Below are positions 21,960-54,544 of a stretch of 64,000 nucleotides of DNA, one piece after another. Numbering within the stretch: the stretch's first letter is position 1; each line of letters begins with the position of its first letter. The translations under genes were made by a program, and so were the position numbers. The notes beneath the pieces were generated by a model. The model made no database searches and was not told where the DNA came from. It was given only the letters and a program-made list of their open reading frames with translations. Source of the stretch: Opisthocomus hoazin (Eukaryota; Chordata; Aves; Opisthocomiformes; Opisthocomidae); assembly GCF_030867145.1 (NCBI RefSeq), contig NC_134440.1, positions 868,001-932,000 of the forward strand, given 5' to 3'.

Positions 21960-22053
21960 GGCCATGGGCTGCACCCCGGGGCCGAGCCCGGGGCACTGGG
22001 GGGGCATCCCCCCCCAGTGCCCCGGGCTCGGCCCCGGGGTGCAGCCCATGGCC
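21960..22053. repeat. 94-bp near-perfect palindrome
   Basis: Two 47-base arms meet with no spacer. I paired every position: all match except 22005/22008, where C faces C. The outer ends read GGCCATGGGCTGC and GCAGCCCATGGCC. The next flanking bases do not pair, so the ends are sharp. The palindrome is GC-rich and could extrude as a cruciform or fold as RNA from either strand. Confidence 0.95.
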
Positions 22054-22559: not shown

Positions 22560-23040
22560 CTGGGCCGTGCCGGGCCATGCCAAGCTGGCCTCTGCCATGC
22601 CGTGCCATGCCGTGCCATGCCACGCGTTGCTGTGCCGAGCCAGCCTCTGCCACGCCGTGCCATGCCGTGCCATGCTGTGCCGTGCCAAGCTGGCCTCTGC
22701 CATGCCGTGCTGTGCCATGCCACGCTGTGCCGAGCCAGATTCTGCCATGCCGTGCCATGCTGTGCCATGCTATGTGGTGCTGTGCCGTGCCATGCTTTGC
22801 CGAGCCAGCCTGTGCCATGCCCTGCCAGGCCATGCTGTGCCAGGCCAGCTTCTGCCATGCCGTGTCGTGCCGTTCTCTGCCGTGCTGTGCCATGCTGTGC
22901 CGTTCTGTGCCCAGCCAGCCTGTGCCATGCCGTGCCACGCCGTGTTGTGCCATGTTGTGCCGTGCTGTGCCATGTTGTGCTGTGCCATTCTGTGCCCAGC
23001 CAGCCTGTGCCATGCCGTGCCGTGCCGTGCCGTGCTGCAG
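22560..23040. repeat. TGCCATGCCG pentamer/decamer satellite-like array
   Basis: About 480 bases built on TGCCR pentamers, mostly as TGCCATGCCG or TGCCATGCTG. An interrupting GAGCCAGCCTCTGCC-type block recurs about every 50-60 bases, giving a higher-order unit. A pentamer cannot hold frame, and several frames stay open on both strands with Met/Pro/Cys/His/Ala/Val peptides, which are artefacts of the repeat. Confidence 0.92.
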
Positions 23041-23328: not shown

Positions 23329-23470
23329 CCTTAAAAGGCCTCGGCCGCCTGCTCCCGGCGCGGCCAGCGGCTCCGCTTCCCTTTGCCAAATTTGGCGCGA
23401 GCGGGCGCGGGCCGGGGGTGTCGGGGGGGGGGGGGGCGGCCCGGGGCTCGCGCTCCCCGAAATGACGTCA
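23329..23470. promoter_or_regulatory. SRF / E2F / CREB motif cluster
   Basis: Within 142 bases there are two perfect CArG boxes, CCTTAAAAGG (23329-23338) and CCAAATTTGG (23386-23395). An E2F site, TTTGGCGC (23391-23398), overlaps the second CArG box. A perfect palindromic CRE, TGACGTCA, lies at 23463-23470. The cluster lies about 1.6 kb beyond the MIDN poly(A) site. It could be an enhancer for MIDN or CIRBP, or an unannotated promoter. Confidence 0.6.
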
Positions 23471-25049: not shown

Positions 25050-26131
25050 GGTTGCATCCAGACTGCCCAAATTTATTTCAAAAATAAAAAATAAAATATT
25101 AAAGACCGAAAGCCTCGCTCTCCCCCCCGCCCCCCCCCCCCCCCCGAAACACACAAAAAAAGACTTTTACAGACAAAAAACACGGCACGTGGGGTCTCTA
25201 CTCGCACGGGGCTCCGACGAGGGGCAGAGGTGGACAGGGGGACGGGATTTCTATGCCTACGCACACCGGGGCGGGACGGGCTCAGTCGCGTCACTCAGCG
25301 CGAGAAACATTCGCCCCGCGGCTCGCGGGCGCCCAGGACCGAGCACGGCGCTGGCTTTTTTTTTTTGTCTTAATTTTTTCTTTTTTCTCCTCGTTTTTTA
25401 AGTTACAGCCGCCGCCGCGACCCACCGCGGGGCGGGCAGGAAGGGGTCCGGCGACTCGGGACGTCGGGCTCAGCCGCGGAGGGAAGGCGCCGTTTCTTTT
25501 CCCTCCGAAAACAGAATTAAAACCCACCCCAGAAGAAAGCCCCCCCACCCCCCACCCCGGCTGCGGCCGCGGGGCCGGCGGTGCCCGGGCACCCGCGTGG
25601 CCCCCCCGGCGCCCGGGGGTCCCAGCCCCGCAGCCGAGCAATGCTACATATAGAAGGGAAGGAAAACAAACGGCCCCCGAACCCGGGGGGGCCCCAGCAC
25701 CTCCGAAAGAGACTTCATCTCCTCCTGCCCACGGGGGGGGGGGACACACGACGCTGGGGGGCTGGAGCCCCCCCCAACCCGCGCCCCTCTTCACAGCAAA
25801 GCAGCAGCTTCGATATCCCCCAGGGACCCCGCGGGTGCTGGACCCCCCGCTGCCGGCCGGGGGGGTGCGGGAGGGGGCTGTGGCTCCTGCCTGCTCCCCA
25901 AACGCAACCGAGCCGGGAGGGGAGGGGGCGGCTGCCCCAGCCCCCCCAAAACGCTTCCCCGGCGCGGGCAGGGCTGCCCCGAGGCGTCCGCTCGCGGGAG
26001 ACGGCAAATCTCGAGGAGATGCGGCCCAGGACAACAGAAACGGCCCCGCCGCCAGCCGGGGCGGTGGGCGCGGGGACCCCCACCCACCCCCCCCCTCCCC
26101 GACAGAGTCCGCGACCCCCCCGGGCCCGGCT
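25050..26131 (-). other. MIDN: MIDN 3' UTR
   Basis: The segment follows the MIDN stop codon on the minus strand. It contains U-rich tracts (plus-strand A/T runs at 25352-25402 and 25072-25103) and ends with a minus-strand AATAAA at 25077-25072, giving cleavage near 25050. A further AATAAA-rich cluster lies at 25080-25100. The low-GC end contrasts with the gene body. Confidence 0.75.
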
Positions 26132-36731
<10,600 letters not shown>

Positions 36732-46963: not shown

Positions 46964-47039
46964 CCCGGGCCAAGGGTTTGCCGCGCTCGCCAGCGCCGCG
47001 CACGCGGCGCTGGCGAGCGCGGCAAACCCTTGGCCCGGG
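46964..47039. repeat. Perfect 37-bp inverted repeat with 2-base loop
   Basis: Arms 46964-47000 and 47003-47039 are exact reverse complements, separated by CA. The outer ends are CCCGGGCCAAGGG and CCCTTGGCCCGGG, and the inner part is GCGC-rich. The adjacent bases (C at 46963, A at 47040) do not pair. It could form a very stable cruciform or hairpin RNA. Confidence 0.95.
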
Positions 47040-52241: not shown

Positions 52242-54080
52242 TTACTCCAGGGCTTTTACCAGGGCTTCGTTAGCTTCCACCTTAATCTGAGCTTCTGCTT
52301 TCGCTGCTTCATCGGATGCTGCGGCCATCTCGGAAACAGCCTTCTCCAGGTTTGATTTTGCAGTCTGAACACCAGAGCACAAGGAATGTGTCATCGAGAG
52401 ACCTCCGCAGGACAGGTGACTTGTCCTACAGCCCTCGAGCCACCCCTCCCTGCCCCCTCCCCGCACCACGGTCCTGAGCCCCGCACACAGGCCCCACAGC
52501 CCTGCTCCCACGGCTGCACCGGCAGCAGCCGCCGCACCAACAGGCGCTGCCGGGGAAAAGCTGTTCCCGAGACCGGGAGGGGCGGGAAGGGGGAGATCAG
52601 CAGGGAGAGAAGCGGCCTGGAGAAGGGTTAACGGCTGCGCGGCTTCCTCTCCCCGCCGCCGGCGGAGGGTTCACCCAGCTCCGAGCCTTTGACCCCATCG
52701 GTGGGCGACGGGGAAGCTCGGGGCGAAGGCCCGGCCCCTGGTCCGGGCACGCTGCGGCTCCCGGGACAGCCCCCCGCCACGAGAGGAGAGCGAGCAAAGC
52801 CCGCTGCGGAGGGAGCGCGGCTCCCGGCCGGCCCGCGGGGACCGGGGTGCTCACCGCCAGGTCCAGCATGTCCATCGTCACCGCCTCCTCCGCCAGCACC
52901 TGCACGGTGGAGTCCGCGTGCACCGTGACGGAGCCGCTGCTCACTGCCAAGGGACAACAGCGGGGCCGCGTCAGCAGCGCAGGCAGCGCCTCGCCCGCGG
53001 CCCCAGGCACGGGACGGCGCTGCCGAGCTGAACCCCGGACCCTCCACGGCCCCGTCGCCGAAACAAAACCTCGACGCCCTCCCGGACCACTTCCCAGGCC
53101 CCCCAGGGACTCGTTTCCTGCCAGAAGGGAGGCAAAAGCAGGGGATGCTCCCAGAGGGCCTGAGCAGGACCAAGACCACCCGGCCCTCACACAGGGCCCC
53201 ATCTTCCCGCGCAGCCCCCGGCCCCGCAGCGCAGCCGCCCCCCGGGAGAGCAGAAATCCCCGGGAGCACCGCGCTCGGCAGAGCCTCCCTTGTGCGAGCC
53301 CTGAGGAGGTCCCCCAAGCCCCCTCCTCCCCCCCCCCAGCTCCGTCCCCTCTACTCACCGAAGTACTTGGTGGCCGTCCCGTCCTCAGCGTGCACCGTCA
53401 CCACCCCCGGCTTGAGGACCTGCAGGGTGGGGACGTGCGAGGCCAGGATGCCGAAGGAGCCGGTCAGCGTGGGCACGTCCACCTGCTTCACGCTGGCACC
53501 GTTGTAGAACACCTGCGCGGAGGGGAGGGGGCCGTCAGCGGGGGGCTGGGGAGGGGGGCGGCGGGCGCGGGGAGCGGGAGCAGGCGTCGAGCCCCCAGAG
53601 CGGTGCCGCGTGCCGTGGCGGGGAGGCGGCACACCAAGGCACGAAGCCGGGCGCGGGGCAGCGGGCGCGGGGCGGTGGGTGGTGGGCTCCGCCAGGAGAC
53701 CCCGTCGGGAGACCCCGCCGCCAGCCCCAGCCGGGCCCGCATCCCGCCCCGGGCCGTGCCCCGCAGCCACCTCCCTCCGCCCCGCTCCCGGCTGCGGGGC
53801 AGACCCGCACTCCCGCAGAGGGGCCGGGCCCGGCGAGGGATGGCGGGGGGGGGGCGGCGGGCTCGGGGCCGCGGTCGGGGCCAAGGTCAGGCAGCGCACC
53901 CCCGCCACCCCCCCCCCGCCCCTCCCGGCCCCGCACCGCCCCGGGGCCTACCTGCGTGGGCGAGGCGAAGGTGAAGGCCATGGCGGGCGGGCCGGCGGCG
54001 GGCTCGGCATAGCGGCGGGCGGGGGGCGGCGGCAGCGGCGGGCGGGCGAGGCGGAGGAGGAGGCGGCGGGCGCGGAACAT
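52242..54080 (-). CDS. ATP5F1D: Mitochondrial ATP synthase subunit delta
   Basis: Four coding exons at 54080-53952, 53512-53359, 52943-52855 and 52364-52242 total 495 bases, or 164 residues (human 168). The arginine-rich start MFRARRLLLRLARP is the mitochondrial targeting peptide, with cleavage probably near RRYAEP. The mature part starts at about MAFTFASPTQ. The N-terminal beta-sandwich includes VDVPTLTGSFGILASHVPT and VTVHAEDGTATKYF. The C-terminal two-helix hairpin begins TAKSNLEKA and ends EANEALVKALE. The subunit is part of the F1 central stalk with gamma and epsilon, at the c-ring interface in the matrix. No in-frame ATG lies close upstream of the chosen start. A donor sequence lies four bases past the TAA (see findings). 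Confidence 0.98.
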
Positions 54081-54544
54081 GGCGGCGGGCGGCGGCAAGG
54101 GCGAGCGGGCGGCGCGGGGGAGGGCGGGACGGCGCCGGGACTACAACTCCCAGCCTGCCCCGCGCAGCGCGACTACAGGACCCGTGGGGCGCCGGGCGGC
54201 GGGCCGGAAGTGGCGCGCTGGGGCGGAGCCGCGGGGGCGCATGGGAGTTGTAGTTCCAGCAGCCCCGCCCGCCGTTCGTCCTGCGGGGGAGTGGGGGGGG
54301 GCACACAGGGACGCGGCCCTGTACCCCCGGCCTGGGGGTCCGGTCCCGCCCCGCGCCCGGCTGCGGGGTCCGGGGGAGGCTCAAGCAGCGGCCGGGGGCG
54401 GGGGCGGTGGGGCGGGACGCGCTGCGGGATGCGCTGCTCGGGGCGGGGAGGGCTCGCGGCAGCCCCTGGCCCCACGTGACGCCCGCGCCGCGCGCGGGGG
54501 CGGCTCCGGTTCATTCATAAATCCCGGGGCCGCCCCGCCGCACC
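54081..54544. promoter_or_regulatory. Divergent CpG-island promoter, ATP5F1D/CBARP
   Basis: About 460 bases separate the ATP5F1D ATG from the predicted CBARP first exon. Two opposed copies of ACTACAACTCCCA lie at 54140-54152 (plus) and 54254-54242 (minus), the motif type bound by ZNF143/THAP11. A CACGTGAC E-box lies at 54473-54480, and a TATA-like CATAAAT at 54516-54522 suits CBARP. No TATA is seen for ATP5F1D. Confidence 0.65.

Follow-up and report, generated by a model that had tools for sequence, protein, structure and literature searches.

In the 64,000-nucleotide stretch of Opisthocomus hoazin DNA analysed here (the window, C27:868001-932000), a GC-rich palindrome of 94 bp (palindrome 1) was identified that is far beyond chance, and we favor, with moderate confidence, the interpretation that it is a young, selectively neutral inverted duplication generated by one nascent-strand snap-back (an intrastrand template switch) and that it is probably without function. 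Palindrome 1 is formed by a 45-bp perfect stem with a CATC centre. Since this centre provides one A-T pair and one C/C mismatch, the element can also be read as two 47-base arms without a spacer and with a single C/C mismatch, which is how an earlier note on this DNA had described it; an equal alternative reading of the centre places a CAT loop and one extra C within a G7...C8 run. The outer edges are sharp, as that note had also stated, with the first outer pair being a mismatch that is followed by two more pairs. Given the base composition, about 1e-17 perfect stems of at least 45 bp with a spacer of at most 60 are expected in the window. In 40 order-4 Markov simulations of the window no stem scored above 17, and the longest stem printed from 10 order-3 simulations was 17 with one mismatch, so that chance is excluded, as had been claimed. 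When 100 nt of a single DNA strand were folded, palindrome 1 formed one long hairpin of -76.2 kcal/mol, compared to -33 for shuffled sequences (z -14.7). The coordinates of this and the other features are compiled in Table 1.

Table 1. Palindromes and neighboring features (window positions unless a contig is named)
Feature	Position	Strand	Description
Palindrome 1, left arm	21960..22004	+	45 bp; exact reverse complement of 22009-22053
Palindrome 1, apical loop CATC	22005..22008		4-nt loop in DNA fold
Palindrome 1, right arm	22009..22053	-	45 bp; exact reverse complement of 21960-22004
Palindrome 2, left arm	46964..47000	+	37 bp, perfect; between ATP5F1D and MIDN exon matches
Palindrome 2, CA centre	47001..47002		folds as 4-nt GCAC loop
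Palindrome 2, right arm	47003..47039	-	37 bp, perfect
Palindrome 3	C30:993297-993404 (piece L030, 3297-3404)		arms about 52 bp, GA centre
MIDN coding exons	26132..36731	-	tblastn; stop placed just past last aligned residue at 26135
200-N assembly gap	26762..26961		inside MIDN, between exon matches ending 28554 and starting 26395

The window belongs to a contig of 10.36 Mb (C27) in a genome of 1.48 Gb and 415 contigs. Genes were placed by tblastn with protein queries (human for MIDN), and CIRBP, MIDN and ATP5F1D were all located on the minus strand, with the CIRBP start at 2728. A minus-strand AATAAA at 25072-25077 lies past the MIDN end near 26132, and palindrome 1 is found about 3 kb beyond this signal, within the stretch of approximately 23 kb that separates the stop of MIDN from the start of CIRBP. 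As far as tested, palindrome 1 is intergenic and outside the exons identified here, and none of 16 long ORFs (stop to stop) selected by length from the region flanked by the MIDN and CIRBP matches yielded a Pfam family. The placement between CIRBP and MIDN at 1.3 kb from an SRF/CRE cluster, as proposed earlier, was thus confirmed, with CArG boxes at 23329 and 23386 and a CRE at 23463 being 1.3-1.4 kb from palindrome 1; no link between these sites and palindrome 1 was found. The two CArG boxes and the full CRE (23329-23470) lie beyond the 3' end of MIDN, with the CIRBP start over 20 kb away, and may represent either an enhancer or an unrecognised promoter. A degenerate tandem array of TGCCATGCCG-like units (22564-23037), starting 0.5 kb from palindrome 1, is possibly akin to the direct repeat expansion of avian dot chromosomes. 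At the other side of MIDN, two opposed ACTACAACTCCCAG-like sites form an inverted repeat (54134-54260) adjoining the first ATP5F1D exon match, and we take them to resemble the ZNF143/Staf-type promoter motif.

Palindromes of the same shape were also found elsewhere. The window itself contains palindrome 2, and among 28 extra 10-kb pieces (280 kb; 20 neighbors on C27, four contiguous pieces of C30, and four on C1, C27, C29 and C32) one carried palindrome 3; this sample is non-random, as the window was picked for palindrome 1 and three of the C30 pieces were picked since the first was GC-rich. In palindrome 3 the arms differ at a single point, by two bases within a G/C run, leaving a perfect stem of 35 bp (52 with the indel). 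The sequence around each of the three palindromes is GC-rich, their contigs measure 7-10 Mb, and all three DNA folds have a 4-nt apical loop (CATC, GCAC and CGAG, respectively), which is about the tightest stable turn that a DNA strand can make. In sequence with a GC content of at least 0.65, this amounts to one long palindrome per approximately 65 kb including the window, and one per 130 kb without it. The recurrence of long perfect palindromes with 4-nt loops in GC-rich small-chromosome sequence is the unexpected part of these results.

In order to find related hairpins, the earlier note had proposed a search of the genome with one arm. This search brought up no sequence relatives of palindrome 1, whose relatives are of shape only: across the 1.48 Gb, each of the three palindromes matched only itself and none matched another, and thus no element family was seen (the search skips very common words and scores only the best candidates, such that its negatives are strong rather than absolute). 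Nor did the genome contain a second copy of the left flank of palindrome 1 (631 bases), for example in an alternate haplotig lacking the palindrome. The tip pattern TGGGGGGG-N4-CCCCCCCA occurred at two places genome-wide, palindrome 1 and C27:126055; the latter was rejected as a further long palindrome, having a stem of only 9 bp that did not extend. A second tip pattern gave 386 places per strand and its control 161, a comparison that is uninformative because the control is itself an inverted repeat. These searches also bear on whether palindrome 1 could be a mobile or viral terminal element, such as a MITE, a fold-back transposon or a parvovirus-type terminal hairpin. It resembles these elements in being short, GC-rich, hairpin-forming and sharp-ended, but such elements are multi-copy, whereas each of the three palindromes was found once in the genome. 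Moreover, no flanking direct repeat (target-site duplication) was seen by eye in the printed flanks of the three palindromes, and viral contigs contained no exact match to arm patterns of 24 and 22 nt taken from palindromes 1 and 2 (one pattern per palindrome), although such a test is weak. We therefore regard an origin from such an element as extremely unlikely.

The stability of the fold (for RNA with flanks, -146.2 kcal/mol and z -11.5; for DNA, z -13.7 to -14.7) raises the question of whether palindrome 1 is maintained by selection, either as a microRNA-like or double-stranded RNA source or as a DNA cruciform that acts close to MIDN; the CArG and CRE sites are also nearby. Processed hairpins carry mismatches or bulges, and palindrome 1 has none of this kind. 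Some Rfam microRNA models did score at palindrome 1, the best being mir-1266 (37.3 bits, E 1.8e-4; gathering score 70), but in neither the window nor L030 did any Rfam family match at its gathering score, and weak scores to several different microRNA models would be expected of any long perfect hairpin. Template switching has been proposed as a seed of microRNA genes (PMC8794818). Palindrome 1 lies outside the exons identified, and the two other unrelated palindromes indicate that the shape needs no selection. No support for a microRNA, a transposon or selection was found at palindrome 1, and a maintained hairpin appears very improbable. If transcribed, a 45-bp perfect RNA hairpin could nevertheless be cut into small RNAs. 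The earlier statement that both strands would give the same hairpin RNA holds for the arms and fails for the loop, which is CATC on one strand but GATG on its complement.

To place the three palindromes in the spectrum of inverted repeats, stems were counted in a GC-rich sample of 194 kb (GC of at least 0.65; the window and 13 pieces) and in a lower-GC sample of 150 kb (15 pieces). With a spacer of at most 12, the GC-rich sample contained 56, 15, 4, 2 and 1 perfect stems of 9, 10, 11, 12 and 13 bp, closely paralleled by the means of four simulations (55, 15.25, 6.5, 1.75 and 1.0, respectively). No stems of 14-34 bp were present, followed by the stems of 35, 37 and 45 bp. The lower-GC sample had no stem longer than 13 bp, giving three long stems in 194 kb of GC-rich sequence versus none in 150 kb of lower-GC sequence. 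In the latter, stems of 11, 12 and 13 bp numbered 3, 2 and 1 versus 0.75, 0.25 and 0.25 in four simulations (6 versus 1.25), and this excess could be due to short template-switch hairpins or to repeats. The sole sign of a short class thus falls where the long class is absent, which is unhelpful to the snap-back reading. As a separate observation over the 344 kb, mirror repeats of 14-25 bases (spacer of at most 12) outnumbered inverted repeats by 32 to 0 in the GC-rich sample and by 14 to 0 in the lower-GC sample, presumably owing to homopurine/homopyrimidine and simple runs.

Older, eroded copies were sought with wider settings. Scans allowing a spacer of up to 60 detected, besides the three palindromes, a 20-bp stem with one mismatch and a spacer of 39 in G/C-run sequence (53842-53920), a 16-bp stem with a spacer of 53 in piece L018, and 14- and 15-bp stems in L025, L031 and the window; apart from the first two, no other stem exceeded 15 bp. 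A gapped search (pairs of at least 25 nt, at least 88% identity, within 300 bases) added only pairs in L003 (28 nt, 93%, self-overlapping), L025 (42 nt, 88%, 240 bases apart) and L030 (25 nt, 96%, 116 apart). In sets of 200 trials at 3, 6 and 10% divergence, the ungapped scan recovered, respectively, 197, 169 and 89 of the arm pairs of 45 bp, 177, 119 and 65 of those of 30 bp, and 125, 53 and 24 of those of 20 bp. A clear tail of older, decayed long palindromes is thus absent from the 344 kb, while short old ones could be missed. The spectrum consists of only three long events, and below about 14 bp any short events are hidden in the chance background. The missing short excess together with the missing eroded copies indicates one of three things: the palindromes are lost fast, the sample is too small, or the palindromes are not in the animal. 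As for the view that palindrome 1 is either recent or maintained, the alternative as posed was borne out, as were the high fidelity of the arms and the missing spacer, and "recent" is favored over "maintained" because there are two unrelated palindromes of the same shape, because clearly eroded ones are missing, and because no RNA family matched at the gathering score.

An adjacent reverse-complement copy, a short loop and perfect arms, as expected of a snap-back, were all present in palindrome 1, and this origin fits because of the perfect arms, the 4-nt tip, the sharp ends, the single copy at the sensitivity of the genome search, and the two unrelated examples of the same shape in GC-rich DNA. 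During synthesis through very GC-rich DNA, the 3' end of the new strand would fold back with a 4-nt tip and copy its own preceding approximately 45 nt (about 40-50 nt); the nascent strand would then unfold and resume on the original template, leaving a sequence directly followed by its own reverse complement. Switching between strands, in turn, should allow larger spacers. For palindrome 1, we infer that the event took place in the animal rather than in the tube, that the return to the template was exact, that one of the arms is a copy of the other, and that function is absent. A length spectrum dominated by short events, as is characteristic of template switching, was not found in the GC-rich sample; this lowers the standing of palindrome 1 as an ordinary template-switch mutation, and not that of a snap-back as the way it works. 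The missing short and eroded classes fit the snap-back reading poorly unless palindromes are lost quickly. Such quick loss of new palindromes is plausible, since those whose long arms are similar and barely spaced, if at all, have been described as the greatest hazard to genome stability (PMC7999016). The junctions of palindromes 1 and 2 had a microhomology of at most 5 bases (25 seed lengths in two directions), which in our judgement is probably no more than chance. The similarity of the right arm to the right flank was reached by 2.2% of random 60-mers (n = 500) for palindrome 2 and by 97.4% for palindrome 1.

An identical anatomy, including the 4-nt tip and the sharp outer ends, would also be produced by break repair, in which a broken end forms a snap-back hairpin that is cut to one side of its centre and ligated to the opposite end to yield a long palindromic (P-nucleotide-like) insertion. 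Nothing in these data separates this route from template switching, but P additions usually comprise a few bases, and this small size counts against break repair, which we consider very improbable.

The main competitor of the snap-back reading is an artefact, an alternative that the earlier note had named as well, whereby the palindromes arose by fold-back in library end repair, amplification or sequencing, or because the folded end of a read was misjoined to the neighboring contig where GC-rich sequence had low coverage. The arms are perfect, apart from one homopolymer difference in palindrome 3, and clearly eroded examples are absent, both as would be expected of an artefact. This reading may gain some strength from the nearby assembly gaps: the 344 kb contain only two gaps (200 N each), one 4.7 kb from palindrome 1 and the other 2.8 kb from palindrome 3. 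Two of the three palindromes therefore lie less than 5 kb from a gap, with a probability by chance of about 2%, such bases making up about 8% of the GC-rich sample (with the threshold set post hoc and n = 3). This association is confounded, however, in that gaps and real fold-backs would both favor hard GC-rich DNA. Palindrome 2 lies 20 kb away from the gap inside MIDN. Palindromic and inverted-repeat chimeras have been documented in whole-genome amplification, short-read and nanopore libraries (PMC6218980, PMC10908179, PMC13141652), but the chimeras described there differ from what we observed, being long-read fold-backs (sometimes several per read), soft-clipped short reads at existing inverted repeats or palindromes, or nanopore pieces of more than 500 bp each; none of those described is a 45-nt insert with normal sequence on both sides. 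In addition, an error would have to outcompete the other reads at the site in order to enter the assembly. Overall, we consider an artefact unlikely, albeit a serious possibility.

The palindromes represent either a class of assembly error or a hot spot of mutation whose products turn over fast. If they are in the animals' DNA, they would allow replication difficulties in GC-rich small chromosomes to be counted, and they would be a source of ready-made hairpins. A broader proposal, which we put forward tentatively and with more doubt than belief, is that GC-rich avian small chromosomes are hot spots of snap-back duplication (approximately 35-50 nt with a 4-nt tip), where palindromes would be made often and lost before eroding. 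This would mirror "sequence stuttering" in inverted orientation and would keep supplying new hairpins. If the palindromes are artefacts, they would constitute a specific and easily screened class of error in assemblies of GC-rich small-chromosome regions. Such chromosomes are hard to sequence and are tied to the "missing gene" problem.

Among titles and abstract openings, no report of long GC-rich palindromes on avian microchromosomes was found, although two bird papers (PMC11580473, PMC7787181) contain the words "palindromes" or "cruciform"; the terms MIDN, CIRBP, ATP5D, hairpin, inverted and any word beginning with "palindrom" had no occurrences in PMC8449477. Palindrome 1 is similar to PATRRs and other genomic palindromes in being near-perfect and able to extrude cruciforms, but it measures 94 bp and is GC-rich, while PATRRs are described as several hundred bp long and more than 90% AT (PMC7999016). 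Its length alone would not be rare in human DNA, since a human catalogue allowing up to four mismatches reports 69,888 palindromes longer than 50 bp; only 2% of the palindromes in that catalogue are more than 80% CG (PMC7680136). The sequence stuttering described in chicken dot chromosomes (PMC12954441) likewise reflects recent local instability in GC-rich avian small chromosomes; however, stuttering is direct, tandem and intronic, whereas the copy in palindrome 1 is inverted and intergenic, and words beginning with "palindrom" and the terms inverted, hairpin and template switch are absent from the main text of that paper. Library fold-back chimeras, as reported in PMC6218980, PMC10908179 and PMC13141652, resemble palindrome 1 as palindromes or inverted repeats formed in the tube by self-priming, strand pairing or joining, but are read-scale or soft-clipped, in contrast to a 45-nt copy between normal flanks. 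The closest known counterpart of palindrome 1 is the template-switch hairpin. Template switching is reported to generate a perfect hairpin in a single event, and some microRNA loci show patterns that would fit an origin by this route (Monttinen & Loytynoja 2022, PMC8794818); likewise, the events reported in great apes are often perfect inverted repeats, with a median copied length of 12 and a maximum of 128, clustering near 12 nt in AT-richer surroundings (PMC7954356). Our palindromes, by comparison, are not accompanied by a surplus of short stems in the GC-rich sample, and they differ from the great-ape events in having arms of 37-52 bp instead of a median of 12 and in lying in GC-rich instead of AT-richer DNA (PMC7954356). 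What they share with the hairpins of both studies (PMC8794818, PMC7954356) is the adjacent reverse-complement copy, the short loop and the perfect pairing.
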